This document shows positions 11,101-64,000 of a DNA stretch of 64,000 nucleotides, in pieces. Position 1 is the stretch's first letter. Each line of letters opens with the position of its first letter. The notes beneath the pieces are model-generated. The model worked only from the letters and a program-made list of their open reading frames with translations. It ran no database searches and had not been told where the DNA came from. Source of the DNA: Ostrinia nubilalis (Eukaryota; Arthropoda; Insecta; Lepidoptera; Crambidae); the NCBI RefSeq assembly GCF_963855985.1, contig NC_087108.1, positions 12,728,001 through 12,792,000 on the forward strand, in the 5' to 3' direction. Both the position numbers and the translations under genes were made by a program.

Positions 11101-14100
11101 AAAGTAATAATAATAAATATTTTAATAATAATAATAATAAATATTTATTCACTTAAACAACCCAGTAATTTACAATAATATAAAGTAATTAGTAAAATTA
11201 TGTTACTCTAGGGTTAGTTTTAATTTTTAGTGTCACAAAAACTTGGACCCCTGACCCGGAAACTAGTAAAAAACTGTATTATCAGGGTCAGTGATTCCTC
11301 AAACGGATTTAATAAAAAAAAAACACAGGACAGTGTTTAAACAACCAGGAAGTGGGTTACTGAGTTACATAAAAATTATTAAGATAACTAGGTATACAAG
11401 GAGGGAAAAGATAAAAATAAAAACAAATCATTAATTACCAAGGCCGAGCTGCACCATCCTACCCTGACTTTGACGAACGTCAAAAATCTGTCAAACTCCA
11501 TACAAAAAGCACTGGTTATTGTAACTGTTACGGTCAAAATAAGGTGGCGCAACCAAGCCCAAGTATACATGAGAGCATATATTTGTTAGTGTGAATGTGT
11601 TTGTATGTGTGTGGTGTGTGTATGTGTGTGTGGTGTGTGTATGTGTGTGTGGTGTGTGTATGTGTGTGTGTGTATATGTGAGTGATGAATACTACGTTCT
11701 TTTATTTATTTATTTTAGAAGATTTTCGGTGTCTGCATAGGATAGGTTCTGGAGATATGTTGTGGCATTCTTAACCACTTCATATCTATTTAAGTTGTAT
11801 ATGGATGTGAATTTATGCAGTGTATTGTACAGTTTACAGGAAAGGGCATCGCACTGGCGTTTTGCAAAAGTCGTTCTACAAATTTTTAGGCTACAAACTT
11901 TGGTAGTAGAGCGTCTCTGTGAGAGAATGTTTGCATCAAATGGAAGAGTAGCGTGCTTTCGCAAAATGCACCGAAGAACATACAATTGCCGTACAGACAG
12001 GATCTGGCACTCCGCATATAATTGGTTAGTGGGGTATTGAATATGCTTCTTGGTCATTATTTTTAGGATGGCTCTCTGCGCTCTTTCTAAGTTTAGCATA
12101 ACAGTTCCCCCAGCTCCACCCCAAATTGGGATACAGTATGACAGAACCGACTGACACAGTGCAAGATACACCATTTTAACGACTTCGGGCTCAGCCAGGT
12201 GTCTTATTATTTTAAATATGTATGTTAGTTTTCTTACTCTTTTTTTAAGGGCTTCAATTTGATGGTGCCATTTTAGATTGGAATCAATAAGGATACCAAG
12301 GTATTTAACATTGGAGACAATACGAAGGAGGGGGCAGTCACATTTATGATTGGGTGATGAGCAGGTATGTATCACAAGGTTGGATGCTTCCGGTGGTGCA
12401 GACGTAGTGGAGGTTATGGAAAAGGGGAGGACCTGCGTTTTCTCAACATTCAGCGTAAGTAAATTTTTTGTAAGCCAATTAGATACAATTTGTAGTGCAT
12501 TTTGTGCAGACTGCCTGGCACTCTCCCAGTCATCACCATACACCACGAGTGCAGTGTCATCGGCATACACGTAGACACCGCAGTTTTGTATATTAAGCTT
12601 ACATAATTCGTTGACGTAGATTTGAAACAAGGTAGGCCCTAGTATGCTTCCCTGTGGGACGCCATAACCGATCTTCTCCAAATCGCTGACATGTGAATCG
12701 ATTCTAACGCACTGTGTTCGATCCAGGAGATAGCTTCGAAAAATGGACAGTTCACGACCCCGGATGCCACAACACTCCAACTTGTTTATTAGAATGGGAA
12801 TGGATACCGTGTCGAAGGCCTTGGAGAGGTCAAGGAATATTCCAAAACATTTATTTTTATTGTCAAGTTTGTCCACAACATCACTAGTTAAGCTAGCGAT
12901 AGCGTCTTCTGTGGAGATGCCTGCTCTGAACCCAAATTGATTTCTCGCTATTATGTCGTATTTATCTAAAAATTTAACCAGGGAATTATTAAGAACTCTC
13001 TCCAAGATCTTCGACAGGACCGGTAAAACCGAAATCGGTCTATAATTAGACACTGCTCCCCTATCTCCTTGTTTATATATGGGACTAACAACTGCTCTTT
13101 TCATAACCCCAGGAAATACCCCGGTACAAATAGCTAAATTGCACACATGCGTGATCGGAGGAATCAGGACATTTCTGGAGGATTTGATAATAGATGGGGA
13201 GATTCCATCCCAACCAGGGGCACAGTCATCGCGGAGGGCACAAACTATGCGTTCTATATCAGCATGGTCAACTTCAAGCAAGGCCATGGAGTTAGGTTGA
13301 GAAACTGTTGCTAATGCGGATACTGTAGTAGATGCAGTTATCTTAGACGCCAGATGACCAGCCACGCTAGCGAAGTATTTGTTTATAGAGTTTATTGCAG
13401 CATGAGGATCTTCATGTACGTTGAGAAGGGCACTTGGGGGATCCACCCGTCGGGTGGAGTTTGTAACTTTTTTAACTACATTCCACATAGCCTTCGGATT
13501 TTTATTTGCCTTGTTAAACTCGCTTTTATAGAAGTCACGTTTCAGTTTATGTAAAAGATTGTTGAGAAAGTTGCGATATCTGACATAGGTTACCTTGTTA
13601 ATATGGTTGTCTGGGTCTCCGCGAAATTTTTCATGGAGCTTGTCTCTATTTCGCATGCATCGAAGTAGACCAGGAGTGATCCATGGCTTCAAAATTATTT
13701 TTTTTCTCGGGGTTTTTATTGTTTTGGAATGAGCTTTTATGGTGTTACTAATCTTAAGGACTAGTTGTTCAGCGGCCTGGTTCACATCCTTGGCACACAT
13801 AATTGGGGAAAAGTCGGTTTCATCAAGGGCCTTTTTTATAGCATCAAAGTCTACTCTAGTTGCTGTCCGGAGTGGTCTAGAAACACTGTGTGAAAGCGCA
13901 TTGTCAATGCAGAGCATAGTGGGATAGTGATCAGTAATCGGGGAATCAAAAACAAGAACCTTGGATGCTAAGTTCGTTCTCAGAAGAATGTGATCCAGGC
14001 AATTGTTTGCCCTGGTGGGAAATGTGTGAGTCGGTAGTAAGCCCAGGGCTGTCACAGAAGTAAGGTAATAGTCAGAACGCCTATCCGTATTATTGGCTTT

Positions 14101-17100
14101 GATATCGATATTGATATCACCTAATAAGGCGATATTTTGAAAAGATTCTAGGCCAGACATTAAACTATTCAGACTAGTTATGAAGTTGGTTATGTTTGAG
14201 AAGGATGGGGATCGGTATATACCTATAAGTGCGATTTTTTTATCAATAGCGCAAACCATACAATTTCCATCTTCAAAGCTGGGTTCCCATACAGTAACAT
14301 GTAAATCCCGCTTGGTATAGATCACAACTCCGTCGTTCTGTAGTTTGTTGTGGGAAGAATGATATGAACTATAGCCGTCAAGTTGCGGTATCCCAGTCGA
14401 GTCCTTTAGCCAGCATTCGCTTAATATAATGATATCGGTATCAAGGTTCATAAGACTAAGAAAAACTATAAATTGATCGAGGTTTTTATTTATACTCCTA
14501 ATATTAGCGTGTATAATTTTATAATACTTGCACGGATCACCTAAAATTTGGATACATTCATTTGGTGAACACTTAAAGGGGCTAGCAACGTTAAACGAGT
14601 CCAGTTCCTTTGTTACATTATTTAAATCGAATTTTGTTTATGTTTCTACGAGGATCTTGCAATGAAAAGGGGACCTGGGACTCAACTTGAACCGATTTAA
14701 AGCCAAGTATATAATCTTTTCTAAAAGTCTTGTAATAGAATAAATGGTCAGACTTAGAAGTGGTAAGTAGCATTTTAATGTGCATAAGATGTGTATGTGG
14801 TGTATGTTGAATGTTTGACATTAAGTGTAGATAAATGTATAATATGATTTGATTAAATTGTGTGTGTGTTAGTAAATAATGTAGTCGTTTATTTGGATAT
14901 TTCTTTGTGAAAAAATATATGTGTGTTTGTTGTGTGGTGTTGGTTCTTACGATATCCTCTAAGATAAAACTCGAAAATAGTAGCACAGGTAAACTAAATA
15001 CTAGTCATTGTTTGGGTTCTAAATCACGTAGGCACTGTGGGGTTCTGATTAGAATTTGTTTCGTTCCCGGATCCTTGCGAAGAAATATCCTCGAGCTCGA
15101 CGACCAACAGAACATATATCCCTTCTGCTTGGCATAGACACGGGCTTCAAAGAACAGCTTTTTCATCGATGGTGACAGGTGTTCATCAACGTAAACGGGT
15201 TTCTTGTCACCAGGCAGGCCAATGTGCTGGGAATTGAGCTTGTCCGCCGGCTTCCTCGATTTGTTGAAGTTGCGAACAGAAGTCAGTATGTCGTGTTTCG
15301 AATGTACCCGGCTAAATTCTACAATAATATTGCCATGGGAGCCAGGTTTAGAAGGTCCACGATGGATATCTCGTACATCCTCCGACTGAAGGTTGAAGTT
15401 TATGGCACTCCCTATTTTGGATACAGTACTGAGGAGGTCAGCAGTAGTCTCTTTTTCATTTTGGGGAATATTACGAATCTCAATAGTCGAGGAGCGAGTC
15501 ATCCGCTGTAGCTCTTGGATTCTTCCCTCCAAGGTAAGTAAATAGTCTCGGTTTTCAATTTTTTCCCTTTCCAACGTCTTTATTTTGGATTGCATTTCTT
15601 CATACTGCGTATTTATAAACTCCAAGGATCTCTCAAGTTCTTGATTTGACTTTTGAATGTCGGAGCATTTTGTCTTGACTTCTGTTATGTCAGATACGAG
15701 CTTTTTAAATATGGAATCTTGGTCCGACTTCCACTGAGCAAAAGCAGAGTCTTGTTGAGTCTTCCATGAACTGAGCATGTCTTTAATTTCATTCGTGAAA
15801 GCTGTGTATCTATCGGGTTTATCCGGTGAGTCGGTACACAGGCGCTTGCTCCTAACCGACACGTAAGATCTTTCAAACTCCTGGTCCATTTTAGAAGGAA
15901 TATCAGATTCTGACTGTACCTGTATGTTTGCAAGTGAGTTAGATGCATTAGGTGAGCGTTGAAGTGGCATTTTATCGTCCTAGGTGCACCGCAACAATTT
16001 TATTTCCACACGAACCGAAAAGTTTGTATGGGACAGTGATTCTTTGGTTCAATCTACTTGAAATTTTGCTTAACAATTCCTTAATATTATAATTTATGAC
16101 AAACGTGTAAAAGGGGTAGAAAGTTATTTTGGGAGTCTTACTGCTTTTGATTTAATTACTTTTTATTTTTACAAGTGTTTGAAAACTCCATGTCAGATTG
16201 CAATCAATGTCAAGTGAAATCTCAAATTGAAATGTCTCAATTTCAATGAGGCTCTGCATTTATTCCTAGAATTCCCCTAACACCGTCAAATTACCCTTTC
16301 GAATTCAAGACAGTGCAGTTTCCCATCAAAATCTGCTTCGTAATGACTATAAACAAAGCTCAAAGTCAAACTCTAGCGACCTCTGCATAAACTCCCATGA
16401 GTGCTCAGAGCGGGTGCCTGCGGCAGGTAACCGCGTGTGATGCTCATAGTGATTTTCAATACAGAGCCCCGTACATACGTTTTACATAAATTATGGAAAG
16501 AAAACACCCAGACCAATACAAAAAAATATGTATGCAATTTTAGTATGATATTTTTATTTATTAATAAACAAAAAGACTGAACAAAATTGATGCGTGTACT
16601 GATTAATGTAATTAACCACATGCAAAGTTTCGTGAATTGCAACAACTATAATTTATTATCCAAGCTCTAAATAATCGCTACTAAGAGTAACTGATCATAA
16701 AATGTTTTTCCAATCGCTCAAGCTCCCGAGGACCTAACGATAGGTCGGGTGACGTAATCTTGAAAATTCCGGAAGGTCGGGTGACGCCACGACTCTTTGA
16801 ACCGTGTTTACTTTGGCAGTTATATTTTATATTTATTCGATTCTAAAATATATTCCCAAAAATTCTGAAAGTTGTTTTAATTTGTATCACTTGGATATGA
16901 TTTGTATTAGAAAGTGCTGTGAGTGTGACGCTTGAACGGAAGGAAGTCAACCTAACCTAACCAACTGGTATTTCTATACTGTGTAGCCGCGAGAGCTCTT
17001 TGGCGCGCTGTCTACGGCGAAGTATTGCGCGCGCAGATTTTGACAGCGCGAAATACCTACTTTAGCAGAAATACCAAGCCTTAAAAAGAAATTGAAAACG

Positions 17101-37710: not shown

Positions 37711-39615
37711 TCAATCGACTTCCTCAATGACGGGGCCGTCGCTCCCGCCAGCGCCGCCGCCCCTGCGAGCCCCGCCCGCCCCGGCCCCCGCCCCATGAAG
37801 CTTCTTCATCAGCGGAGCGCACACACTGCTCACCTCCTTCAGCTTATCCTCATACTCCTCCTTCTCCGCCAACGAGTTAGCCTCCAACCACTTCAGCGCC
37901 TCCTCACACTTTCGACGCGCCTTCCCACAGTCAGGCTCGCCCAACTTCCCCCCGCTCTCATCTACCGCCTGCCGCACCCCATACAAATACGTCTCCAACT
38001 TATTCCGAGACGCCACCCTGTCTCTTTGACGGTCATCCTCATCCTTATACTTCTCAGCTTCAGACAACATCCTGTCGATCTCAGCTTGAGATAGTCTCCC
38101 TTTGTCATTCTTAATTACGATGTTCTTACTCTTTCCTGTGCTGTTCTCTTTAGCAGATACGTTAAGAATACCATTAGCATCCAAATCAAAGGTGACGTCA
38201 ATTTGTGGAACTCCTCGTGGAGCAGGCGGTATACCGGTCAGATCGAAAGTCCCAAGCAAGTTGTTGTCTTTTGTCATAGCTCTTTCGCCTTCGTAGACCT
38301 GAATGGTGACGGCAGGTTGGTTGTCAGAGTACGTGGTGAACGTCTGCGAGTGTTTGCAAGGAATCTTGGCATTACGTTCGACTATTTTTGTCATAACTCC
38401 TCCAGCTGTTTCAATCCCTAATGACAGAGGGGCAACATCGACAAGTAAGACATCCTGTATCTTTGAATGACGTTCTCCACTAAGAATAGCAGCTTGTACT
38501 GCAGCGCCATAAGCGACAGCTTCATCAGGATTGATTGACAAGTTCAGTTTCTTGCCATTGAAGAAATTTTGGAGCAGGCTTTGGACTTTGGGTATACGCG
38601 TTGAACCTCCAACAAGAACAATATCGTGGATGGAAGTCTTGTCCATTTTAGCATCCTTCAATGCTTTTTCCACCGGTTCCAGTGTTATTCTGAAAAGATC
38701 AGCGTTGAGCTCTTCAAACCGTGCTCGGGAAATACGAGAAAAGAAGTCGATTCCTTCATACAGGGCATCAATTTCAATACTTGCTTCGGTGCTTGAGGAT
38801 AGAGTCCGCTTTGCTCTTTCAGCTGCAGTGCGCAAGCGACGAAGAGACTTTGGGTTATTCTTTAGGTCTTTCTTGTGCTTTCTTTTAAATTCATCAGCAA
38901 GAAAGTTAACCAGTCTGCTATCAAAGTCCTCGCCACCGAGATGAGTGTCTCCAGCAGTAGCTTTCACCTCGAAAAGTGATCCTTCGTCGATAGTAAGAAT
39001 GGAAACATCGAAGGTTCCTCCTCCAAGATCAAAAATGAGTACATTCTTTTCTCCCTTTAAATCCTTATCAAGCCCGTACGCTAAAGCAGCGGCAGTAGGC
39101 TCATTGATGATACGCAAGACATTCAGCCCTGCAATAGCGCCAGCGTCTTTAGTTGCCTGTCTTTGGGAATCATTGAAGTAAGCTGGGACGGTAATGACTG
39201 CGTCTTTCACTGTTTTTCCAAGGTACACCCCAGCTATCTCTTTCATTTTGGTCAGAACCATGCTGCTGATCTCTTCTGGCGCGAACCGCTTGGTTTTACC
39301 TTTGTACTCGACTTGGATTTTTGGTTTTCCGCCATCATTGATGACTTTGAATGGCCAGTGTTTCAGGTCTTGCTGAATCTTAGGGTCGTCGAACTTGCGG
39401 CCAATAAGTCGTTTGGCGTCAAATATTGTGTTGCTTGGATTGAGAGCCACCTGGTTCTTGGCTGCGTCGCCAATGAGGCGCTCGGTGTCGGTGAAGGCGA
39501 CGTAGGACGGCGTGGTGCGGTTGCCCATGTCGTTGGCGATAATCTCCACGTTCCCATGCTGCCACACTCCCACGCAAGAATACGTCGTCCCTAAGTCAAT
39601 TCCAACCGCTGGCAT
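37711..39615 (-). CDS. Cytosolic Hsp70/Hsc70 chaperone, intronless
   Basis: 634 residues. Hsp70 signatures are in order: [13 protein letters not shown] (6-18), [12 protein letters not shown] (about 195-206), [13 protein letters not shown] (about 333-345), then the substrate-binding domain and the C-terminal EEVD that docks TPR co-chaperones. No signal peptide and no KDEL, so it is cytosolic/nuclear. The enzyme couples ATP hydrolysis to binding of unfolded segments. The usual GGMP tail repeats are replaced by a Gly/Ala/Arg-rich tail before EEVD. It is uninterrupted, as in stress-inducible insect Hsp70 genes, but I see no convincing array of heat-shock elements upstream. Inducible versus cognate is left open and no symbol is given. 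Confidence 0.97.
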
Positions 39616-40183
39616 TTTTGTATTTTATAGATTTTATCCGCAATGAATTTTTGTTTCGCAATAATTTGATTATTTTGACTTAGATATTTTTTTCTAAAAA
39701 TCTAATCTGTTGACGTTATTCATAACTAACTGCCAGTAATAAAAGCTATCCTCTGGTATATTATTAAAGCAGTTTCCTTTAAGCTCTGTATTATTTAATT
39801 AAATCAAATTATAATTCAAAAATATTTAAATAAAGTATTAAAACATTTATTCCTAAAGAACAATACAACGCTATCATTGTTAGTGAAATTTAAAAAAAAC
39901 CAGATGACATTGACAGGTTTATTGACTTTGGCACTTGACAGCTGTGCTTGACAGTGACATTGACAATTATTTATTATTCTTTGTGAGATTTGAGATTTGC
40001 CTGCAGTTTTTAAAATTTTCCTTTTAGTAAAATAATTCTTTTAAACCATCAAATTAAAGCATTTGCAATAGTATAGTTAGCTGCATAGTACACAGCTAGG
40101 TGTTTAAACAAATAACAAAATTCAGGCATGTCAACATAACCTTTAAAAGTACTGTATTTTTGATTTTATAAAAACAAAGAACA
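39616..40183. promoter_or_regulatory. Divergent promoter region of Hsp70 and GPN3
   Basis: 568 bp separate the two start codons, facing apart. A cluster of TGACA/TTGACA motifs occupies 39905-39970. No clear TATA box was placed for GPN3. For Hsp70 the only TATAAA-like site (about 39625-39631) lies too near the ATG to be confident. No good NTTCNNGAANNTTC array is seen. Shared control is inferred from spacing only. Confidence 0.55.
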
Positions 40184-44559: not shown

Positions 44560-45013
44560 GCTAGTGGAGTATACGCTTGATCGGTTACAGAGTGAGTTAC
44601 GATCAAAATGGCGTCGACACAGATTCGGGATCTACCCTCATCACGCTTTGCTTGAGTCTCGACGTGCTCTATCATAGGGCAGGCTCATCAGGCATGTCCA
44701 TATACGGAAGGGCTCATGTAAGAGGTACTAACTTACTAAGATGTGGAAGTCCATGTGATAGAGAATCGGGATCTACCCAGGCTGGCAGCGTTGACTCGTA
44801 TTCGTATCCCGTTATAGGGCAGGCTCATCATACGGGAAGGACGCGTTATCGGTGATTCTGAAGACAATCTCATATAGAGAGGTTATGTACAATGGCGCCG
44901 ATTAGAATCTGGATCTACCCACGCTGGCAGCAGATTCTCGGCGTGTATTACAATGCAGGCTCGTCTGGCATGTCCATATACGGGAATGGGGCGTTATCTG
45001 TGATACTGAAGAC
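44560..45013 (-). repeat. Tandem copies of the PHF12 terminal exon end
   Basis: Three units of about 140 bp. GCAGGCTCRTC followed by CATGTCCATATACGG or its remnant and GTGATWCTGAAGAC recurs at about 44680, 44819 and 44955 (coding copy). GATCTACCC with GGCAGC recurs between the units. Confidence 0.8.
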
Positions 45014-45164
45014 GTAGTGCGCGCATCCGAAGGCCAGCAGAGCGCCGTGCGGTAGCAGCGCCGAGCCCTCCCACGCACCTTCCGGGGTTTCCGGCTCTCG
45101 CTCGGGACAGTGGCACGAGGACGATTCGGAGTCCGACATCGGGAGTGTTAGGGAGCCGTTGATC
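44948..45164 (-). CDS. PHF12: PHF12 last exon: FHA C-terminal strands and stop
   Basis: Acceptor GTTCCAG precedes 45164. It encodes LPMSDSESSSCHCPEREPE, then GAWEGSALLPHGALLAFGC, YVFSITDN and a short tail MDMPDEPAL before TAA (44948-44950). Copies of this exon's end recur twice in the 3' UTR at a spacing of about 137-140 bp. Confidence 0.87.
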
Positions 45165-48100
45165 CTGGAACGTTACAACATTACTTTTAGTCCATTGATT
45201 GTATTTACTAGAGGTGATAGCTTTACTCACGCACTAGCTACAGACGATATTCAGGAAGTTTACAATTATTTTTACTAGATTATAGTGAATATTTCGAAAG
45301 CTAATGGACGTCTGTCTTGGAGAATAAAATGTCAACAGCTCAGCGCAGGAGCGACCCACGCAACACACAGCCATTGGTCCAACCAAAGTTGTATAGGTAC
45401 TATCGGGGACTCGGACGCCTTGACACCTTAAGGACCTAAATTGTTTGCACACACACGCTCGATTATGCTACGCCCCTGTTCATTAATATTTCGGGTCTAA
45501 GCAGCGTCGGCGCTCCACTGTAGATGTTTGCCCTAGCAAACCAAGCTCTATGTAAAGCGTTTTGGATTGAGTATTGCTTACCCGCATCCGTAGCGCTCGC
45601 GGGACTACTTGGGTAGAAGGTTTGAAAGGAACAGTTTGGCAACGTCGCATTTTAGTCAATGTGAATCCCAATAAAGAATCGCTACAAAACAGTGTGCAGC
45701 CCCCCTAGTGTCCCACCTGTGGGCCGCCCTAGTGTCCCACCTGTGGGCCGCGTGCGGGCGCCGGCTGCCCAGCGGGAGCGGCTGCGGCGCCTGCTCCTCA
45801 TCCAGGCGAGGCGAGGCGGCGGCCGCGTCGCAGGTATAAAGGACGCCGTTGACTAGTGTCCCCCACTCGGAATAGTTGATCAGCTCGAAGTGGCGTGTCA
45901 CCTGATGAGAACAATGGTATATTAAGGACCTTTTTACACAAGTCTCTTGTACTAATTTTAAAACACGGGGCTCAAAATTTACTGCCGGTAAACCCAAGAG
46001 ATGCGATCTGGAGTGAGGAATTGCACACCATTACGGATTGGTGCAGAGGATGTGGCACGAGTCCACAATTTTACCTACCTCGGGAGCGTCGTGTCAGAGA
46101 CTGGAGGTACCGAAGAGGACATCACTTCGCGCATTGCCAAGGCCAGAGCTACCTTCGCACAACTTCGCCCCGTATGGCCACGGAAACTGACCCGAAGGGG
46201 CAAAATCAAAATCTTCGGGTCCAACGTTTAATCCGTTCTGCTCTATGGGTATGAAACGTGGAAGGTCACCGAGGTCATCTCACACCAGCTGCAGGTCTTT
46301 GTCAACCGCTGCCTTCGCCGAACATTGTACTAATTTTAAAACAAAATCCATCATCCAGTAGCTCAGAGTGAAGAGCAGTTGTCCGGCAAGCGAAAGGTCG
46401 TGGGTACGATTCCCGCCTTAGGCAGTTCGATTTTTTTCAAGTTTTTCATTTATAATTTAAGACAAAAATTCTATAAAAATATCCGATCATACGCAAGTTG
46501 AACTCGCACACCACGGAAAAATTGGACGTGGTTATTAGTCTTCTTTGCCGAAACCACAGTGTCTAATATTTCGTGTCAGCCAAAAGAAGACGTCTACTGC
46601 TAGACGATCTTGCCACGGATTTCCATAACGTCTTGTCCTGCTTGCTCCAAATGCTTCCCGCAACCATCGCTAGATCGTCAGTCCACCTCCTGTAATATCA
46701 CGAGTGTACCTCATTCATGAAGATGGTAGCGTGGGAGGCCGGATACAGCGTCCCCCGGGTACAGTGTTTTCGCGTCCTATACCTCGTTCATGAAGATGGT
46801 GACGTGGGCAGCCGGGTACAGTGTCCCCTAGGTATAACGTCCCCTTGTCCCCTGTACCTCGTCCATGAAGATAGTGGCTTCAGCGGCCGGGTACAGCGTC
46901 CCCTGTGTATAGCGTCCCTTGTCCCTGTACCTCGTCCATGAAGATGGTGGCGTGGTGCGGCGCGGCGCGGCGACAGGCGGGCAGGCGCAGGCCGCAGCCG
47001 CTGTCCGTGCCCACTGTGAGAGCAGCGCGCCGCATCGCAACGGGGCTCCCGGCTAGCGCTCCCATGCCGTCGCTGAAACACGCGACATACAGGTTAAATA
47101 GCGCAATAGCTTTTTTTTTTATGTGACAGGAGGCAAACGAGCAGACGGATCACCTGTAAGTGATTACCGTCGCCCATAGACACCCGCAGACCCAGGGGCG
47201 TTACAGGTGCGTTGCCGGCCTTTAAGGTGAAGATACGCTCTCCTCTTGAAAGCTTGCAGGTCGTATCCGTCCGGAAACACCGCAGACGACAGTCCGCTGA
47301 TTTCAACCTCTTTAAATTTTATTAAGATTATAATGGTACCACCAGTAACATCCTGAAAAACGTTCATCGGGTCACTGAAAATGCGTGAGCGAGCAATGAT
47401 GTTATTTAGCGTCTTAGAGTTACTCTGCCATTGCGATAGGGTTGACTGCTGCAAGAAGCTATTTTTATTATTAGTATATTTTTCTTTCCACATGGATTTT
47501 CTTTATAATGGGTGAAGAACACGCGCGCCTACGGCACTCACTACTCGCTCGTAAATTCTTGGTGGATTAAACCCACCGGTGGACACGCCGCGCGCGTTTT
47601 GAGATGGCCTGCTGACACTGTCACTCGACAGACTCTGAAGTCACTGACCAAACGTGAGCAGTGGTGAGGTATAGAAAATGTACGTGTGAATTTATATGTT
47701 CGTTCGTAAATGTACTCACTGTGCAACAGGACTAAACGTAGCTCGCACATAGGCGTCACAGGGCGGCACGGGGGCGCCCCACACAGTAGGGCGGTGCCCT
47801 GGTAGGCTAGAGCGCGCCCCGCTAACGGCGCATGTGTAGTAGATACATGGGTCTACTCACTGCGCAACAGGGCTGAGTGTAGCTCGCACATAGGGTCATA
47901 GGCGTGCCTGAGACTATGCCTACCTACTAGAGCAGACCAGCTAGTAGGGCCACGTGTAGTAAATGCTTGGGTCTACTTACTGTGTACGTAGTATTGCGGC
48001 CGTACGTAATACGTAGTAGGGCGCGTCCTGCTAGAGCCGCGTGTGTAGTAAATGCCTAGGTCTTCTCACTGCGCAACGGGACTGAGTGTAGCTCGCACAT

Positions 48101-51100
48101 AGGGTCATAGACGACACTGGCTCTTGGTGCCGGGGGCGGGCTCCCTTCCCTACTAGAGCGGACCAGCTAGTAGGGCTTGGTGTAGTAAATGCTTGGGTCT
48201 ACTCACTGTGCAACAGGACTGAGCGTAGCCCTAACATACGCGTCACAGGGCGGCACAGGCGCCGGCGGGGCAGGTGGGGGCGGCGGGGGCGGGGCGCCCC
48301 ACACGGCAGCCGCTATACGGCGGCGGTCGGCGGCCGACAGCAGGGCGGACGGCAGGGCGGCGCTCCGGTCGGCTAGAGCGGACCAACTAGTAGGGACGTG
48401 TAGTAAGTGCTTGGGTCTACTTACTGTGTACGATGGCCGTACGTAGAACGCGCCCTACGTGTTCTGCTAGAGCCGCGTGTGTAGTAAATGCCTAGGTTTA
48501 CTCACTGCGCAATGGGACTGAGTGTAGCTTGCACATAGGGTCATAAGCGTCATTGGCGCTTGGTGCCGGGGGCGCCCTCCCTGCTAGAGCAAACCAGCTA
48601 TTGCCGCGTGTGTATAGTCTGGTCGCTTAGTACGTAGAATATCGTCCAATGACCCCAAACTACCCATCCTTATCGCTCGCGCGTAATTATATTGCTGTCG
48701 CGATTGTGCGACAGGCTCGCAGTGAGTGTGCGAACGCGACAGAGACCCGGGCTTTAGTAGATACATGGGTATACTCACTGTGTAACGGGCCTAAGTGTAG
48801 CTTGCACATAGGGTCATAAGCGTCATTGGCGCTTGGTGCCGGGGGCGGGGCTTCCCTCCCTGCTAGAGCAGACCAGCTAGAACCGCGTGACCCCAAGCTA
48901 TCTTCCCTACTAAAGCAGACTAGCTAGGGCCGCGTGTGCAGTAATGCTTGGATCTACTTACTGTGCAACAGGACTGAGTGTAGCCCTGACATACGCGTCA
49001 CAGGGCGGCACAGGCGCCGGCGGGGCAGGTGGGGGCGGCGGGGGCGGGGCGCCCCACACGGCTGCCGCAATACGTCTCCGGTCGGCGGCCGACAGTAGAG
49101 CCGACGGCAGGGCGGCGCCCCGGTCGGCAGTAAGGCCATGTGTAGTAAATGCTTGGGTCTGCTCACTATGCAATAGGACTGAGTGTAGCTCGCACATAGG
49201 AGTCATTGGCGCTTGGTGCCGGGGGCGGGGCTCCCTTCCTTGCTAGAGCAGACCAGCTAAGGCCGCGTGTGTATAGTCTAGTCGCCGAGCACGTAGAATG
49301 TCGTCCGATGACCCCAAGCTACCCATCCTTACCGCTCGCGCGTAATTATATTGCTGTCGCGACTGTGCGACGGGCGCCCGCAGTGAGTGTGCGAGCGCGA
49401 CAGAGACCGGGCTTTAGTAGATACATGGGTATACTCACTGTGCAACAGGACTGAGTGTAGCCCTGACATACGCGTCACAGGGCGGGACAGGCGCCGGCGG
49501 GGCAGGTGGGGGCGGCGGGGGCGGGGCGCCCCACACAGCAGCCGCGATACGACGACGGTCGGCGGCCGACAGTAGAGCCGACGGCAGGGCGGCGCCCCGG
49601 TCTGTTAGAGCGGACTAGCTAGCGCCGCGTATGTAGTAAATGCTATACTCACTGTGCAACAGGGCTGAGCGTAACCCTGACATAAACATCACACGGCGGG
49701 GGCGAAGCGCCCCACACAGTAGGGCGGCGCCCTGATAGGCCAAAGCGCGACCAGTTAGAGCCGAGTGTGTAATAAATGCCTGCGTCTACTTACTGCGCAA
49801 CAGGGACAAGCGTAGCTCGCACATAGGCATCACAGGCGGCGGTAGGCAGCTGATAGCGGCGCCCTGGCCGGTTAGAACGCAACCATCTAAACTCTGATTT
49901 TTAATTCGACGGAATTTTGACATTTCAGAAGTGTTGTCAACATTGAAACATTCCCATTATGAATGGAGAGCATTTTCACAAATTAAAAAATAATCCTTTC
50001 TTGAATTTAAGGTTTCACTTGAAAAACTAAGGCTTAAAAATGTACTGATCATTTCAAAATGGTTATTTGAATTTTTATTATCATATTTTTGAAGTTACAA
50101 AAACAGTTGGGAAATTATTTTTCTATTACTGGACTCCCTGGTCAATAATCCATGGGTTACAAAACTTTTTTATGAAAATCCTTTTGTTAATAAAATCTTA
50201 GCTTCATAAAATAACCAATTTAACAAGATGCCAATTTTATAATCCAAGTTGATTATGACGACGATAATTATTATTGATGATCAATACATATTTTCGTTTA
50301 TGATAATATGTTGTTTTACTGTGTTAAAACACGTTTTTTTCTATTTAATCTCTAAAATGTACATAATAATTAGTGTACATTGAATTGACAAAACAAAAAA
50401 TAGTTCATTCTTGTAAGTTGTACTTGATGAAATTTCATTTCATATTATTATTTATTAATAATTCAAAGCAAAAAAGGCTTATCACATCTGAATTGTCAAA
50501 AAATGACAGCTGTCAGAATTCCGTCGAATTAAAAATCGGACTATAGTGTAGTAATGTCTGGGTCTACTCACTGCGCAACAGGGCTGAGTGTAGCTCGCAC
50601 ATAGGGTCATAGGCGTGCCTGAGACTATGCCTACCTACTAGAGCAGACCAGCTAGTAGGGCTACGTGTAGTAAATGCTTGGGTTTACTTACTGTGTACGT
50701 AGTATTGCGGCCGTACGTAGTAGGGCGCGTCCTGCTAGAGCCGCGTGTGTAGTAGATGCTTGGGTCTACTCACTACGCAACGGGACTGAGTGTAGCTTGC
50801 ACATAGGGTCATAAGCGTCATTGGCTCTTGGTGCCGGGGGCGGGCTCTCTTCCCTACTAGAGCAGACCAGCTAGTAGGGCCGCGTGTAGTAAATGCTTGG
50901 GTCTACTTACTGTGCAACAGGACTGAGTGTAGCCCTGACATAGGCGTCACAGGGCGGCACAGGCGCCGGCGGGGCAGGTGGGGGCGGCGGGGGCGGGGCG
51001 CCCCACACGGCAGCCGCTATACGACGACGGTCGGCGGCCGACAGTAGGGCGGACGGCAGGGCGGCGCCCCGGTCGGCTAGAGCGGACCAGCTAGAGCCGC

Positions 51101-54100
51101 GTATGTATAGTCTAGTCGCCGAGCACGTAGAATTTCGTCCAATGACCCCAATCTACCCATCCTTATCGCTCGCGCGTAATTATATTGCTGTCGCGACTGT
51201 GCGACGGGCGCCCGCAGTGAGTGTGCGAGCGCGACAGAGACCGGGCTTTAGTAGATACATGGGTCTACTCACTGTGCAACAGGACTGAGTGTAGCCCTGA
51301 CATACGCGTCACAGGGCGGCACAGGGGCCGGTGGGGCAGGTGGGGGCGGCGGGGGCGGGGCGCCCCACACGGCAGCCGCGATGCGGCGGCGGTCGGCGGC
51401 CGACAGTAAGGCGGAGGGCAGGGCGGCGCCCCGGTCGGCCAGGGCGCGCCCCGCTAATGCCGCGGCGACGGCGCGGCGCGCGCGGGCCGAAATGCCGCAG
51501 CGCGACCACGAGCCTACGCAGCCCTCGCCCCAGGATATCTAAAGCATAAGTTCAGTCGTAAGAGGCTACACATCAAACAAAGAACGGGCAGCAGCGCTCT
51601 CTGAAAAACATCAATCTTTTAAACTGCGATCTCCAACCCGCCTGCCAAGCGTGGAGATTATGGCAAAACCCTCCACTATAGTGGAGGAGGCTCATAGTCC
51701 AGCAGTGGACTGTAAAGGGCTGTTGATGATGATAATGATAAGTACTAATTAACGCATTGTCCCAAACCAGTATGTATTTAGCGCCATCTTTATGCAACTG
51801 TTTGTAAAGCACCATCTATGGTCAACTCCACGTTGACGTGTTACACGCGTTTTTTCGTCCTTAGGCTATAGCTGAAAATCAGTGGTTTGCTTTTAAGTAA
51901 ACCAAGTACTGGACTATTGCCGTTTTGCGTTGCTGCGACACACATTTCTGTATAAAGTGTGTACCTATATTATGTGTCATAATGGGTTTTTTTTCTTTTC
52001 ATACCATGCCATGTGGTATTGTCCTGAGGGTACTATTTTATCCTACCTTCGATACTTTCTGTTTGTAATGTGTATCCCATCAAAAACAATACTTGTCAAA
52101 AAAACCAAGTCTCGCAACTCAGTTGTTCTACGGTAAAAAGTTGTGAGATCCATGTAATACCAAGTCTAGGCCAGGAAATCTTTAACGTTTTACATAAATT
52201 ATTGACTTGGCCATCGCACTAAATAATTTAATTTACATGTGTTTTCATGAGTTGCGAGACTTGGTTTTTTTGACAAGTATTGTTTTTGATGGGATCTCAT
52301 TTCTTTTTGTATTTTGTAAACAGTTCTACTTTTTTCCTTTTCGGTACCTTCTACTTATTGTATGTATATCTAACCAGCAACGAATTTTCTTAAAGTCCTC
52401 TCTCTGACTTATGAAATTTTCTTATTTATGTAGGTAGCCTTCCGTTTTCTCTTTTCCGGTTCTACTTCTTGAGCTGAAAACTGGACCGAAATTGAAAAAT
52501 GTTACTCGACTTGGCGGGGACACTACCGTGTGCCTTTATATTTAATTTTATATGATATTACAAACTTATTTAGGTAAGTAGTTAAATATTTATAAAACTG
52601 GACCGAAATTGAAAAATTTTGCTAGACTTAGCGGTTGCACTACCGTGCCGTAGTAGTCCCGTGTAGTTTTTCCTTGATTCATACACCAAACACTACTTAT
52701 ATTCCAAATTTGAAGCTTCTAGGTCGGCTAGAAGTGCCTTAGAATTTTGATGATCGGTGAGTCAGTCAGTCAGTCAGTGAGTGACAAAATTAAGAAACTT
52801 TGACCCGTTATAATTCTTAAACTGCTGGTTCAAATTGAATGAAATTTGAAATATACCGTGTCTTTACAATGCCTGCATGGATACTGAAAATTCAGTGTTC
52901 TAGTTTTATCCACAAGATGATACAGGGGGTCGAAAATGGCCTGAATTGCTTCGAGAAAAGGATGGTACGGCCGTGCCGCTTTTTTGCTCGACTTGGTTTC
53001 TGTTATGCAAATAAACATTTTATCTATGTTTCTGTTATGCAAATAAACATTTTATCTATCTATCTATGGTTCCTCTTCCTTACCGAACTACCGGGACTCC
53101 GTGAGTCTAATTCCGTAAACAAAGAACCATAGATGGCACTACACATGTCCGTGCTGCTTTTACATATCGATCGATCGCACGGCCATCCGGCCATCATTAC
53201 ATTCCTATTCAAGACACCACTGTAAACTACTGCGTGTAGAAATACAACCAACAAACAACGTCTCCTGAGTTTTCTTTCCAACACGCATACTTAATAAAAA
53301 TTACATAAGTTAAATACGTCAGAATGTGTAAATTAATAATATTATACCATAATGTAAATTTTAAACAACCTTGTCTACTTGTTGTTACCTGCTGCAGCTG
53401 CTGCCAGGCCAGCAGGCGCACCAGGCGCGAGTCCAGCTTATGCAGGCGCTCGTCCACCACCTGCAACATTATTATTATTATCAGCATATTTTCTTGTCCG
53501 TGCTGGGAGCAGTTGAGGGAGAGTGTGAGATCTCTTGTCGGTGTCATTTAGCAAACCCTATCCTACGATGGACTGGAGATTGGAGATTAGCGTACTGTCA
53601 TCTAGAATCTCTATAAATAAGCTCACTAATGGGCACATCTTCGTTGGTCGATACTGCTGCCTCCTTTGCGACCTAAAGACAACATAAGGCCCTGTACCTG
53701 CTTTGAGAAGGAATAAGCACCTGCAATAACTCCTCCACGTCGTCATCAGGCCGCAGAGTGAGCCGCTCGAGCTTGTCGCGCGGGCTCGAAGTCGGACCGC
53801 AGAGTGAACCGCTTAACCTATGCGGGAGGGTCAAAATTGGTGTAGATACTTAGCGTCTACGAAAGAGGTTACAAATCTTCCTTGATCGATGCAGCTGCTT
53901 CTTTGAGTCATGAAGACAGATTAAAGGCCTATGTCACCTGCAGTAACTCCTGCACATCCTCATCGGGCCGCAGAGTGAGCCGCTTAGTCTATGCTGGCGG
54001 GTCAAAAGGGGTGTAGGATCTCTAGGTATTTAGCGGGTCATCCCTGTAAAAGGAGGCTGGAGATCCTGCCATCCAGAACGTCTACGAAACATCTTCCTTG

Positions 54101-56882
54101 GTCGCTGCTGGTGCTTCTTTGAGACATGAAGACAGAATAAAGACCTGCCCCAGAGTGAGCCGCTGGAGCCTATGCTATGGGGTCAAAAGGGGTGTAGGAT
54201 CTCGGGTCAAACACTGCAAAAGGAGGCTGGAGATGGACAAATGAGATCACCAATGAGCACATATTCCGTGCTCGATGCTGCTGCCTCCTTTGGGACATAA
54301 AGACAATAAGTACCTGCAACAACTCCTCCACGTCGTCATCGGGCCGCAGAGTGAGCCGCTTAGTCTATGCTGGCGGGTCCAAACGGGTGTAGGATCTCTA
54401 GGTATTTAGCGGGTCATCCCTGTAAAAGGAGGCTGGAGATACTGCCATCCAGATCGTCTACAAATGAAGTCACCAAGGAGCACATCTTCCTTGATGGATG
54501 CTGCTGTCTCCTGCCGTATCAGCCGTATCAATAATGGCCCCCCATTATCATAACATGAAGACAGAATAAGGACCTGCAGTAACTCCTCCACGTCGTCATC
54601 AGGCCGCAGCGTGAGCCGCTCAAGCTTGTCGCGCGGGCTGCGGCGCTTGACGGCGGCCGTCAGGTACTCGAAGTCGGACCGCCGAGTGAACCGCTTAACC
54701 TATGCGGGGGGGTCAAAATTGGTGCAGATACTTAGCGTCTACGAAAGAGGTTACAAATCTTCCTTGATCGATGCAGCAGACATGAAGACAGATTAAAGGC
54801 CTATTTGACTTACTTGACTTATGGTCCTATGTCCCCTAGATGGGGCAGAGGGCGTCCACAACAGTCCTCCATCTCGTTCGGTCTTGAGCTTCTCGCTTGA
54901 TCTCGCTCCAGGTCTTGCCGATCTTCTTCGCCTCGTCCGCTACAGTGCGCCGCCAAGTTTGCCTGGGGCGACCACGTTTGCGTTTTCCTTGGGGATTCCA
55001 ATTCAGAGCCTGCTTGGGGATGTGATCGGGATCCCTTCGGAGAGTGTGGCCAATCCAGTTCCACTTGCGGCGCTTGATCTGCTGGTCGATCGGAATTTCG
55101 TGGCAGCGTTCCAATAGCTCGACGTTGGAGATTTTCTCGGGCCAGTATATGCCTAGAATTCGGCGAAGGCAGCGGTAAGGAATAAGTACCTGCAGTAGCT
55201 CCTCCACGTCGTCGTCTGGCCGCAGCGTGAGCCGCTCGAGCTTGTCGCGCGGGCTGCGGCGCGGCGCCGACAGCTTGCGGCGCTTGACGGCCGCCGTCAG
55301 GTACTCGAAGTCCGAGTCCGACAGCGAACTCGATGACTCCGTGTTGCGCTCCATCTGGGAATGAGAGCAACGTGTAAATGTTGAACACTGGATGCCCTTG
55401 TCCTTGACCCTATGTTCTTCTGATTAATTTCGGTTCATCCAATGACAGTTTAACTTTCCCCCGGGACATACTTGACCTTCATTGGTTGGGTTTTTATGGC
55501 GGTCAAGCTGTAGATCCTGGCTACACAGGAGTTGCAGTGGTGGAAACGAGAGGCGGGAATAGTCCCGAACACTGGATGCTTTTAACCTATTGAAGATCCT
55601 AGCCTAGACAAAAAAAATATAGGATTTTGTGTACATAAATAAAATTAAACTTAGTCCATGGACTCTCTAACTCTCAATCAGTCAAGGTAACATGGCAGGG
55701 CAGGACAGGTTCAGGCAGATCATATGCATGGCCCTGGTCATTTTTTTCCGTCGGAAAATGCTTTGCGCATAACCATTGACCGATGGGGACAGTCAGTGAG
55801 TTATGTGGGACTCTCCTTTGAGACCATTGAAAAGGAACCGCGAGTTATTGTCCTTAAATTGGACATTCATCCGCGGTTTGAGCCCTAGGTACTGGCCTAT
55901 TGAAAAAGAAGACATTATTACCCTAGGCTCAAATAGCTTTCAGGTCATCTGCAGCGTCCTCCTCGGAGGCAGATACTTTGCATGAAGCCTTGTACCGCTG
56001 GGACCTGGGCATTTGCCTAGACTGCCTAAAGGAAATGAAGACCTTCCTACCTTGGGCTCAGGCTCGGATATAGCCTTCAGGTGATCAGCGGCGTCCCTTC
56101 ATAGGCGGTAGCTTTACGATCATCAGCGGCGTCCTCAGACAGATCTTATGCTTGGGAGCACCCTCGATCACTGCGCACTTTCCAAGACTGCCTAAGATGT
56201 TATTACCTTAGGCTCCGGGTCGGATATAGGGCAGGACAGGTCGAGGCAGGTCCTGTTACCTTAGGCTCCGGGTCGGATATAGCCTTCAGGTCGTCGGCGG
56301 CGTCCTGCTCGGAGGCCGGCTTGAGGCCGGGCGCGTCGCAGGGACACGGGCCCTCGCCCGAGTGCTGCGGGCAGGACAGGTCGAGGCAGGTCCTGTTACC
56401 TTAGGCTCCGGGTCGGATATAGCCTTCAGGTCGTCGGCGGCGTCCTGCTCGGAGGCCGGCTTGAGGCCGGGCGCGTCGCAGGGACACGGGCCCTCGCCCG
56501 AGTGCTGCGGGCAGGACAGGTCGAGGCAGGTCCTGTTACCTTAGGCTCCGGGTCGGATATAGCCTTCAGGTCGTCGGCGGCGTCCTGCTCGGAGGCCGGC
56601 TTGAGGCCGGGCGCGTCGCAGGGACACGGGCCCTCGCCCGAGTGCTGCGGGCAGGACAGGTCGAGGCAGGTCCTGTTACCTTAGGCTCCGGGTCGGATAT
56701 AGCCTTCAGGTCGTCGGCGGCGTCCTGCTCGGAGGCCGGCTTGAGGCCGGGCGCGTCGCAGGGACACGGGCCCTCGCCCGAGTACTGCGGGCAGGACAGG
56801 TTGAGGCAGATTTTGTGCTTTGGAGCGTCCTCATCCTCGTCCTCTGAGTCGATCTCTTTGCTGTCCTTTAGGTTTTGGAGCA
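44948..56882 (-). CDS. PHF12: PHD finger protein 12 (Pf1) homologue, C-terminal exons with FHA-like domain
   Basis: In transcript order the exons are 56882-56680, 55354-55190, 53460-53389, 51538-51273, 47072-46931, 45901-45741 and 45164-44948. All have AG/GT borders and matching phases, giving 407 residues to TAA. Recognition rests on the C-terminal FHA-like region: FELINYSEWGTLVNGVLYTCD, a Cys-rich spacer (SCHCPE), then GAWEGSALLPHGALLAFGC and YVFSIT, the arrangement at the C-terminus of PHF12. The LVRLLAWQQLQQ helix also fits. PHF12 is a nuclear scaffold of Sin3/HDAC and MRG15 complexes. The PHD fingers and start codon lie beyond the right edge. Six of the seven exons have tandem copies of their 3' ends downstream (see findings). 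Confidence 0.85.
45706..45752 (-). repeat. 24-bp tandem duplication of PHF12 FHA exon donor
   Basis: CTAGTGTCCCACCTGTGGGC occurs twice, 24 bp apart. Each copy contains the exon end and a GTGGGA donor. Confidence 0.9.
45741..45901 (-). CDS. PHF12: PHF12 exon 6 of window: FHA core
   Basis: Acceptor CTCATCAG precedes 45901. It encodes VTRHFELINYSEWGTLVNGV and LYTCD, then an Ala/Pro-rich loop. Two tandem donors GTGGGACAC occur 24 bp apart (exon end at 45741 or 45717), both in phase. The second adds 8 residues (WDTRAAHR). Confidence 0.87.
45985..46330 (+). pseudogene. RTE-type reverse transcriptase fragment
   Basis: The + strand reads FTYLGSVVSETGGTEEDITS, RIAKARATFAQL and, after a frame change, CETWKVTE with VNRCLRRTL. 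These are hallmarks of the C-terminal part of RTE/CR1-like LINE polyproteins. Broken by frameshifts. It lies in a PHF12 intron, antisense to the gene. Confidence 0.75.
46357..46440 (+). repeat. tRNA-derived SINE head
   Basis: TAGCTCAGAGTG (46359-46370, A-box-like) and GGGTACGATTCCC (46402-46414, B-box-like) are spaced as in a tRNA, followed by a T-rich stretch. It is not a functional tRNA: the acceptor stem does not pair. Confidence 0.55.
46710..46935 (-). repeat. Four tandem copies of PHF12 exon end plus donor
   Basis: CTCGTCCATGAAGAT (minus strand ATCTTCATGGACGAG followed by GTAC or GTAT) starts at 46710, 46783, 46858 and 46931, spacing 73, 75 and 73 bp. The last is the true exon border. 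Confidence 0.88.
46931..47072 (-). CDS. PHF12: PHF12 exon 5 of window: first half of FHA-like domain
   Basis: Acceptor GTTTCAG precedes 47072 and donor GTACAG follows 46931. It encodes MRRAALTVGTDSGCGLRLPA and HHATIFMDE, matching the FHA opening strands. Three further copies of the exon end and donor follow downstream. Confidence 0.85.
47109..47295 (-). repeat. Dispersed lepidopteran-type retroposon fragment
   Basis: A poly-T start leads into GTGACAGGAGGCAAACGAGC, GTGCGTTGCCGGCCTTTAAG and GTCCGGAAACACCGCAGAC. I recognise this as a common dispersed lepidopteran sequence. The family name is not certain. The poly-A tail is on the minus strand. Confidence 0.6.
47718..51290 (-). repeat. Large array of PHF12 exon 4 3'-end copies
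   Basis: Donor-containing copies (minus strand TGTTGCACA or TGTTGCGCA before GTGAGT or GTAAGT) begin at 47720, 47861, 48070, 48207, 48506, 48779, 48962, 49167, 49439, 49653, 49794, 50572, 50774, 50911 and 51273 (true exon). Diverged ones lie at about 47981, 48425 and 50692. Copies at 48207, 48962, 49439 and 50911 extend 150-190 bp into the exon through the poly-Pro codons. Others keep only about 40 bp. A shared AT-poor spacer recurs at about 48615, 49270 and 51106. Confidence 0.88.
49894..50539. mobile_element. TIR element inserted in the exon-copy array
   Basis: The inverted ends GATTTTTAATTCGACGGAAT extend to about 27 bp and are flanked by ACT on both sides (49891-49893, 50540-50542), a possible 3-bp duplication. 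646 bp, AT-rich, no transposase. Its composition contrasts sharply with the GC-rich array around it. Confidence 0.75.
51273..51538 (-). CDS. PHF12: PHF12 exon 4 of window: Ala/Arg and poly-Pro segment
   Basis: Acceptor ATGCTTTAG precedes 51538 and donor GTGAGT follows 51273. 88 codons plus two bases: Ala/Arg-rich helices (RARRAVAAALAGRALADRG), SAADRRRIAAAVWGA, a Pro run of seven, then CDAYVRATLSPVA. The frame was fixed by the phase of the next exon. The WAPPPP part is low complexity. About 17 partial copies of the 3' end follow at 47720-50911. Confidence 0.75.
52075..52294. repeat. Foldback element with 47-bp arms
   Basis: Arms 52075-52121 and 52248-52294 are essentially perfect inverted repeats (TCCCATCAAAAACAATACTT with its complement). 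The loop carries TTGTTCTACGGTAAAAAG. Resembles a sequence common in moth genomes. Confidence 0.8.
52996..53059 (+). repeat. 32-bp direct tandem duplication
   Basis: GTTTCTGTTATGCAAATAAA plus CATTTTATCTAT occurs twice in succession, then continues into CTAT repeats. Confidence 0.9.
53389..53460 (-). CDS. PHF12: PHF12 exon 3 of window: LLAWQQLQQ helix
   Basis: Acceptor GTTGCAG and donor GTAACA enclose exactly 24 codons, phase 0: DERLHKLDSRLVRLLAWQQL then QQ. Probably helical. This is the only visible PHF12 exon without downstream copies of itself. Confidence 0.85.
53721..54690 (-). repeat. Tandem copies of PHF12 exon 2 3' end
   Basis: Copies of CTGCARYAACTCCTCCACGT start at 53721, 53938, 54314 and 54574, plus a fragment at about 54149. 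The true exon end is at 55190. Some extend into the Ser-Pro-Arg-Arg codons. Between them lies a shared spacer with GGGTGTAGGATCTC and CATGAAGACAGA. Units are about 215-380 bp. Confidence 0.85.
54819..55175 (-). pseudogene. RTE-type LINE C-terminal fragment
   Basis: The minus strand reads LRRILGIYWPEKISNVELLE, KRRKWNWIGHTLRRDPDHI, QALNWNPQGKRKRGRPRQTW and RTRWRTVVDALC. This is the conserved C-terminal region of RTE-type retrotransposon polyproteins. Unbroken over about 110 codons, in the PHF12 sense orientation. No N-terminal RT part is adjacent. Confidence 0.85.
55190..55354 (-). CDS. PHF12: PHF12 exon 2 of window: Ser-rich and basic segment
   Basis: Acceptor CCCAG precedes 55354 and donor GTACTT follows 55190. 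55 codons, phase 0 both ends: SSSSLSDSDFEYLTAAVKRR, then KLSAPRRSP and DDDVEELLQ. KRRKLSAPRR could serve as a nuclear localisation signal (inference). The open frame continues past the donor into an RTE retroposon fragment. Confidence 0.82.
55905..56819 (-). repeat. 140-bp tandem array of PHF12 exon 1 3' end
   Basis: Donor-bearing units start at 56260, 56400, 56540 and 56680 (true exon), spaced exactly 140 bp. The first three appear identical, and the true exon differs mainly beyond codon CPQYSG. A truncated unit lies at 56206-56259. Two older degenerate units lie at about 56045-56160 and 55912-55980. Confidence 0.92.
56680..56882 (-). CDS. PHF12: PHF12 exon 1 of window: acidic Cys-containing segment
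   Basis: Acceptor TTTCAG precedes 56882 and the donor GTAACAGG is at 56679-56672. It encodes 67 residues after a partial codon: an acidic run SEDEDEDAP, then KHKICLNLSCPQYSGEGPCP and DLKAISDPEPK. It ends in phase 0. Its last ~140 bp are repeated three times immediately downstream. Confidence 0.8.
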
Positions 56883-62971: not shown

Positions 62972-64000
62972 TTTTTACTTCAAAATTATGCAAAAATATT
63001 CTCACTCGTTAACTAATAACATTTAATTCAGAATTGTTATAATACTTCATAGAGCTCTTAAAACTACACGTAATAAGCGTATTAAGTGCTTCGTAAACGC
63101 ATTCAGTTAATTAGGAAAAATGATTTTAGTGATTTTTGTTTTTATTTTTTTTCTCAATTATACCTTAATATATGCAAACATTTTTAATTGCAAGATATAG
63201 TCTGATATTTAATCTAATTGTATTAATAAAATCAGCTTTAAACTCCGTGATATATTTGAGAAAAAACATAAAACGTCTTAATAACATTTTTACGAGTCTA
63301 GGGTCGACAATTTTGGAAGGAATAATTCATGTCTAAAAAGTTTCAAATCCCGCCTGTTATGTGCATAGTGTTGAAGGTTCTAAAAAGTCACATTCACATT
63401 GTTTTTAACCGACTTCAAAAAAAGGAGGAGGTTCTCAAGTCGAGTCTTTTTTCTATTTTAACACTCTTATATTAACTTAAGTTGTATGTAAGTAACTAAC
63501 TAAAAAAGTATGTAAACAAATCTAGGAAGTCGAATTTATCCTACCTTTAATAATTTTCTCATCGATTTGAAACCTATAATAAATCGAATGTCAATACAAT
63601 AGTTTCGTACAATCGAGCTGATGATATTTAAACATCCAAAAGAAATATTGCTATTAAAAAGTGATGGGAAATTTACAATTCTATATGGCGCATATTTTCA
63701 ATTTGATTTTCCTCAAATATATCACGGAATTTAAAGCTGATATTTTTTATACAATTAGATTAAATATCAGACTATATCTTGCAATTAAAAATGTTTGCAT
63801 ATATTAAGGTATAATTGAGAAAAAAAATAAAAACAAAAATCACTAAAATCATTTTTCCTAATTAACTGAATGCGTTTACGAAGCACTTAATACGCTTATT
63901 ACGTGTAGTTTTAAGAGCTCTATGAAGTATTATAACAATTCTGAATTAAATGTTATTAGTTAACGAGTGAGAATATTTTTGCATAATTTTGAAGTAAAAA
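62972..64000. repeat. Large palindrome cut by the window edge
   Basis: Arm 62972-63260 is the near-perfect inverse of 63712-64000 (289 bp each) around a 451-bp loop. The last window base still pairs, so the arm may continue beyond the window only if its partner left of 62972 also matches. The loop includes AACCGACTTCAAAAAAAGGA, a dispersed lepidopteran motif. Confidence 0.88.

Follow-up and report, generated by a model that had tools for sequence, protein, structure and literature searches.

Copies of exon 3' ends lie downstream of six PHF12 exons in Ostrinia nubilalis, and some may serve as coding cassette exons

Tandem genomic duplication is a known source of introns and of extra coding sequence, as excerpts of three papers set out (PMC3443670, PMC2891723, PMC4974935), and internal gene duplication is treated in earlier work to which two of these excerpts refer (Rogers 1989, Gao and Lynch 2009 and Hellsten 2011, cited in PMC3443670 and PMC4974935). 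One of them describes an 'imprecise' type of gain, in which splice signals are inherited or latent ones are activated and residues are added (PMC3443670, in excerpt). In potato RdRp, according to the excerpted text, a duplication spans an exon-intron border, at the acceptor and once (PMC4974935). The arrangement described here for PHF12 of the moth Ostrinia nubilalis resembles internal gene duplication in that coding sequence is duplicated locally and head-to-tail together with splice signals. However, compared with the potato gene as excerpted (PMC4974935), the PHF12 events cross or abut the exon 3' border, concern six exons and have led to up to 18 donors, and, compared with internal gene duplication in general, they have kindred repeats across several moth families. 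Tandem exon duplication, with cassette or mutually exclusive use, is a second similar system, as its excerpted description also features extra homologous coding exons and protein-level constraint (PMC9741552). In contrast, PHF12 copies contain only the 3' part of an exon and its donor, with acceptors coming from elsewhere, and whole exons with acceptor and donor, by which mutually exclusive tandem exons are recognised, were not found, as 5' ends were copied at none of the seven exons. All tandem exon duplications known to us are copies of whole exons with both splice sites. Coding minisatellites and internal protein repeats share with PHF12 a peptide that is repeated within one protein, and the repeats of exon E4 in Amyelois look like a coding minisatellite; the Ostrinia units at exons E1, E2, E4, E5 and E6, in contrast, run through the donor into the intron. 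With regard to introners and other mobile introns, which are recognised by dispersed copies with element ends or target duplications, no copy in the window, the 64,000 nucleotides of O. nubilalis DNA that were analysed, lay anywhere but behind its source exon (E up to 1e-3). Literature searches on PHF12 in Lepidoptera or Ostrinia, mostly outside subscription papers, returned nothing, and the pattern was not recognised among titles and abstract beginnings on partial exon duplication, duplicated donors and internal duplication. The general mechanism is known, and the directional concentration at many PHF12 exons, with its kin in moths, is undescribed in the literature searched.

On the minus strand of the window, seven PHF12 exons join as a single open frame (Table 1), and two public O. 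nubilalis protein models match these exons at 99-100% identity. In the public annotation the gene appears as two, named 'PHD finger protein 12-like' (P0007) and 'protein enabled homolog' (P0001). The N-terminal model P0007 comprises PHD fingers and the PHF12 MRG-binding domain; its reading runs on beyond the E1 donor and enters the first of the repeat units. The C-terminal part of PHF12 gave an FHA match of 17.9 bits, which is under the curated cut-off of 20.7 bits. Residues 1-338 of P0007 had no tblastn match anywhere in the window (E up to 1). The seven exons are the 3' part of PHF12 only, and a count of six in seven therefore covers only the exons seen here.

Table 1. Positions of PHF12 exons and of their copies within the window
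Feature	Position	Strand	Remark or method
Exon E1	56680..56882	-	candidate internal acceptor 105 nt (35 codons) ahead of donor
Exon E2	55190..55354	-	joins in common frame
Exon E3	53389..53460	-	without copies
Exon E4	51273..51538	-	joins in common frame
Exon E5	46931..47072	-	joins in common frame
Exon E6	45741..45901	-	joins in common frame
Exon E7 (last, stop codon included)	44948..45164	-	joins in common frame
E1 array, three 140-bp units and short copy ending 56207	56206..56679	-	TRF, BLASTN
Two older E1 copies, ~87% identical	55933..56096	-	BLASTN, reading frames
E2 array, five exon 3'-end copies, GT after each	53720..54699	-	BLASTN, reading frames
E4 array, 17 further GTRAG donors	47719..51272	-	BLASTN, donor pattern
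Long E4 copy L1, 180 nt	50911..51090	-	coding exon in model P0001
Long E4 copy L2	49439..49602	-	protein identical to E4
Long E4 copy L3, 204 nt	48962..49165	-	coding exon in model P0001
Long E4 copy L4, 180 nt	48207..48386	-	coding exon in model P0001
E5 array, ~73-bp units, last ~25 nt and donor present in three copies	46705..46930	-	TRF, BLASTN
E6, 24-bp tandem duplication across donor, 2.2 copies	45699..45751	-	TRF
E7, two copies of 3' end	44607..44865	-	BLASTN

At six of the seven exons the 3' end, together with the donor in the internal exons, was repeated on the same strand and downstream only. This was scored in a border test of the 3' and 5' end of each exon for copies within 6 kb (E up to 0.01). 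Downstream copies of the 3' end numbered three at E1, three at E2, 14 at E4, two at E5 and one each at E6 and E7, while upstream copies of 3' ends were found at none of the seven exons and copies of 5' ends, in either direction, also at none of the seven. When each exon with 150-nt flanks was compared with the whole window by BLASTN (E up to 1e-3) and self and reciprocal matches were set aside, all matches were on the same strand and 3' of the exon end, with the exception of a weak minus-strand match inside E4 and a 19-nt match of the intron preceding E6. Neither analysis yielded copies of E3. By TRF, BLASTN and the border test, the copies are arranged head-to-tail on the same strand behind their own source exon. 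The units consist of the exon end and GT at E1, E2, E4, E5 and E6, the E7 copies bearing the stop instead, and they differ between exons in sequence, length and age. A sequence-only reading of this DNA had proposed that exon 3' ends recur downstream and never on the 5' side, that the exon here called E3 is the exception, and that differing unit lengths mark separate events; the first two points were recovered in full and the third holds at all six exons. Equal numbers of copies upstream, which that reading had named as evidence against itself, were not seen in the border test. Within PHF12 alone, copying of donors as opposed to acceptors amounts to 6:0 (two-sided P 0.03). Of 617 points sampled in the locus, 261 had a same-strand copy within 5 kb; elsewhere in the window this applied to 27 of 2577. 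The proposed gene specificity stands within this window, where copying is tied to PHF12.

GC-richness alone was considered as a cause and rejected, as the exon of a cut-type gene at 29685-31292, with CUT domain and homeodomain, has a GC content of 0.68 yet no exon-end array. This exon contains a short 9/18-bp repeat (31161-31227), and clusters of local same-strand matches are located at 29400-29480 and 30100-30180, which we presume may be two CUT domains matching each other. Elsewhere in the window, the minus strand carries open frames of 975 and 324 codons (11710-15979), whose translations suggest a nearly intact non-LTR element, and a 637-codon open frame with a full-length Hsp70 match (37711-39624). 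A large foldback, with arms of 297 nt that are 98% complementary and 435 nt apart, extends up to the window end (62972-64000). A scan of the window for tRNA found none.

The largest array is that of E4, with 18 donors within 3.6 kb. Among the further donors, 14 of 17 are part of BLAST matches with E4-derived ends and three were assigned by donor pattern only. Four copies are long, with donors at 50910, 49438, 48961 and 48206. The in-phase AGs of L2 are confined to its final 24 nt, so that its long stretch is unspliceable in the present form. E4 and L2 differ by one mismatch over positions -47 to +105 and by 11 over -144 to -48, a mosaic suggesting that the array grew by unequal exchange and conversion. 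Inside the array, an element with 36-nt inverted ends that are 89% complementary occupies 49887-50546; if this element is an insertion, the E4 array predates it.

Behind E1, young and old copies stand side by side: in addition to three near-identical units there are a short copy, a 23-nt fragment and two copies of greater age. The 140-bp unit comprises the 105-nt 3' part of the exon and 35 nt beyond it and is about 99% identical to the exon region, and one of the older copies still reads DAADHLKAISEPEPK ahead of GT. Since a 35-nt gap is below the length that allows splicing from one unit to its neighbour, adjacent units cannot be joined in this way. Each unit holds a pyrimidine-rich AG within the exon part, 105 nt upstream of the donor, and to judge by the letters its use could extend the protein by one E1 copy without a change of frame. 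Three of the E2 copies can be read as open exons in frame, with lengths of 126, 51 and 51 nt (54699-54574, 54364-54314 and 53988-53938), with AG acceptors that were picked by hand from seven, three and four in-phase AGs and judged by AG, phase and pyrimidine count alone; the 17 positions before the chosen AGs contain 12, 9 and 11 pyrimidines, compared with 7-14 for the seven real acceptors. Directly behind the E2 donor there is an open stretch (54819-55190) that had no match in Pfam and that, in our view, has the look of a non-LTR retrotransposon protein at its C-terminal end. E6 has one extra 24-bp unit, and both E7 copies keep the reading DEPAL-stop.

Use of the copies as exons is seen in a public model. 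P0001, a predicted protein model, consists of E2-E7 and the three E4 copies L1, L3 and L4, identical to the window letter for letter and in the order E2, E3, E4, three copies, E5, E6, E7, and four E4-type units thus stand in one chain. Homologues were collected, 63 records after two rounds and 170 after three; the best 120 of 495 matches were used, another round scored the 7995 candidates that shared most words, and the third was queried with a long Cydia protein, which favoured long proteins. Forty-seven of the 170 records (P0001-P0047) were counted as Lepidoptera, sorted by hand from their names, with the five 'lgn' records P0010, P0011, P0013, P0027 and P0039 placed there by best matches, and this set includes two Ostrinia, two Epargyreus and three Cydia records. 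The 123 others are those not counted as Lepidoptera, further 'lgn' records among them; from uninterrupted open reading frames on contigs of about 3 kb, we infer that some 'lgn' contigs are spliced transcripts. Internal repeats, scored along diagonals at 25 residues and 70% identity with low-complexity sequence excluded, a count that overlooks shorter or more diverged repeats, were present in six of the 47 records counted as Lepidoptera versus none of the 123 others (P 3.5e-4 with relatedness ignored). The six records are from Ostrinia (P0001), Helicoverpa armigera (P0009), Phthorimaea operculella (P0017), Amyelois transitella (P0031), Cydia pomonella (P0034) and Cydia amplana (P0038). Loxostege sticticalis P0008, the best-scoring relative with a full model, had no internal repeat at the threshold used.

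The comparison among moths was made on protein models only, with exon borders transferred from Ostrinia by alignment. In the five non-Ostrinia species it gave eight multi-copy exon sets, five of which reach the exon 3' end: E1 in P0009, where one of four extra matches ends early, E1 and E4 in P0034, and E2 and E4 in P0038. Among the extra E4 copies of P0034, five of nine extend to residue 91-92 of 92 and four end at 84. The remaining sets are that of E7 in P0017, extending to residue 60 of 68, that of E4 in P0031, which is internal to the exon, and that of E3 in P0038, which covers the whole exon; none of the eight covers the exon 5' part alone. The comparison with related Lepidoptera that the sequence-only reading had called for hence shows that models of other moths repeat parts of the same exons. 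P0034 has two MRG-binding domains, and in P0017 residues 769-797, at the C-terminus, are a partial repeat of E7, as though reading had run on past the stop in a copy of the last exon. These kindred repeats, coming from other assemblies, also bear on an assembly artefact, in which collapse or expansion of repeats would yield false copies. The E1 units with their identity of about 99% would fit such an error; the E2 and E4 copies, however, diverge by about 8-25% from their exon, and the inverted-repeat element is located within the E4 array, so that we consider an artefact scarcely credible.

Differences between copies and exons were sorted into synonymous (S) and nonsynonymous (N). Across E4 and its four long copies, 19 sites were variable in 162 nt, 18 of them synonymous and one nonsynonymous, with 6-12 synonymous and 0-1 nonsynonymous differences per pair. 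When sites private to E4 were excluded, 13 of 14 were synonymous at a neutral share of 0.315 (P 3e-6). The compared stretch is free of indels in all four long copies, whereas alignment of 60 nt of intron past the donor required 0-10 gaps per pair. As the arrays are mosaic, branch-wise substitution counts are approximate. Gene conversion as the source of the synonymous excess was rejected by argument only, on the ground that nonsynonymous changes would enter a converted neutral copy at the same pace as synonymous ones enter the exon. The five E2 copies differ from their exon by 6/0, 6/0, 1/2, 5/2 and 5/0 (S/N), where alignment of copy 1 needs a single in-frame gap of 21 nt, and two of the three open copies carry only synonymous differences. 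Summed over ten short E4 copies (of 13 shorter ones, the three known from donor pattern only being left out), there were 41 S and 17 N, and in four of them a one-base gap separates copy and exon. Each of the three young E1 copies has 0 S and 2 N, and all share these two changes; the old ones have 4/2 and 4/1. The copies of E5 (2 S and 2 N in sum) and E7 (4 S and 3 N) are so short as to be uninformative. On these counts, coding constraint is strongly indicated in the long E4 copies, fairly well in those of E2, and weakly or not at all elsewhere. Because the truncated E4 copies also lean to synonymous changes, the bias alone is no proof of present translation; their lean may be inherited from longer ancestors.

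These counts have to be weighed against the view that exon-end duplications are neutral and tolerated, the first donor being used and the copies representing intronic debris with spare donors. Many copies are indeed truncated and some frameshifted, the synonymous bias extends to truncated E4 copies, and an internal repeat is missing in 41 of the 47 lepidopteran records, so that it is not generally needed. The transcript-like Helicoverpa record P0013 (777 residues) also fits this view. It is identical to P0009 at 772 of 777 residues outside the 175-residue insert of the latter, lacks this insert and contains the E1 end once, indicating that copies are at least often left out. However, the synonymous excess in the long E4 and the E2 copies is unexpected for debris, and three E4 copies serve as exons in P0001. 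We therefore regard pure tolerance as an unlikely account, if one to be kept in mind.

A different role was suggested by the sequence-only reading, namely that the arrays are kept since many U1-binding decoy donors tune splicing or protect the transcript. In a search with the E4 exon part and the donor masked, all 13 copies found had retained GTRAG, and GT forms the border of all five E2, three E5 and five of six E1 copies, borders that had been picked at GT. Yet a decoy role gives no reason to expect constraint on the codons ahead of the donor, the E2 copies vary after GT (GTCCTT, GTACTT, GTCTTT, GTGACA and GTGCTT), and the E7 copies derive from an exon without a donor. As the long copies are conserved at codon level and three of them are coding in P0001, the decoy function is not favoured for them, and as an explanation of the arrays we find it quite improbable. 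The copies are better explained by repeated birth of partial coding exons: some of them probably behave, or recently behaved, as coding cassette exons that would have been born of tandem duplication across donors.

The cause of the copying may also be sought in a gene-specific mutational engine tied to the direction of transcription or to exon-intron borders, such as R-loop slippage or cDNA-primed repair. Six exons with unrelated units in one gene, the adjoining young and old copies at E1 and the recurrence at E1, E2, E4 and E7 in other moths would be in line with such an engine. However, neither the copied exons nor the arrays show a G-rich skew in their coding strand: GC skew was -0.12 to +0.03 in the six copied exons, -0.09 to 0.00 in the four arrays measured (those of E6 and E7 left out) and -0.04 over the whole locus, with +0.12 in the copy-free E3. 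R-loop seeding, as put forward by the sequence-only reading, is therefore unsupported, and cDNA priming is unlikely as the copies contain intron sequence. We thus give an engine of this kind very little weight. Taken together, the earlier interpretation was right in pattern, direction and separateness of events, and lost its R-loop seeding as well as, for the long copies, its decoy donors.

We favour, with a probability of roughly 0.58, that local tandem duplications crossing the donor seeded the six arrays, that exchange and conversion enlarged them, and that copies in frame and with an acceptor became cassette exons. Each array would start with the duplication of a segment spanning the exon 3' border, that is, the exon end and its donor, and unequal exchange and gene conversion would then enlarge and mix the arrays. 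Copies that carry along or gain an acceptor and keep the frame would turn into extra cassette exons, and we infer that they are spliced in vivo; most of the added cassettes would belong to the region that separates the PHD fingers from the FHA domain. Several of them have probably evolved under protein-level constraint, while truncated copies would decay. The direction may follow from splicing itself: after a donor-crossing duplication, the exon would remain joined to its first, intact donor and the extra copy would necessarily lie downstream, whereas a duplication that places a new acceptor upstream would present the wrong acceptor first and would damage the transcript more frequently. The excerpted potato RdRp case (PMC4974935) demonstrates that acceptor-crossing duplication exists, and the bar against acceptor copies would hence not be absolute.

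Exon birth by tandem duplication is usually viewed as a matter of single, old events, while in PHF12 young and decayed stages occur together at six borders of one conserved chromatin gene. The case also exposes the public annotation as splitting and misnaming this gene. It makes testable whether splicing renders donor-crossing duplications safer than acceptor-crossing ones, and also the route from a partial copy to a real exon. More tentatively, and with doubts of our own, PHF12 of Lepidoptera might be an exon nursery, in which continuing gene-specific duplication across donors and selection for in-frame cassettes would make the linker that joins the PHD fingers to the FHA domain differ in length and repeat number among species and isoforms.
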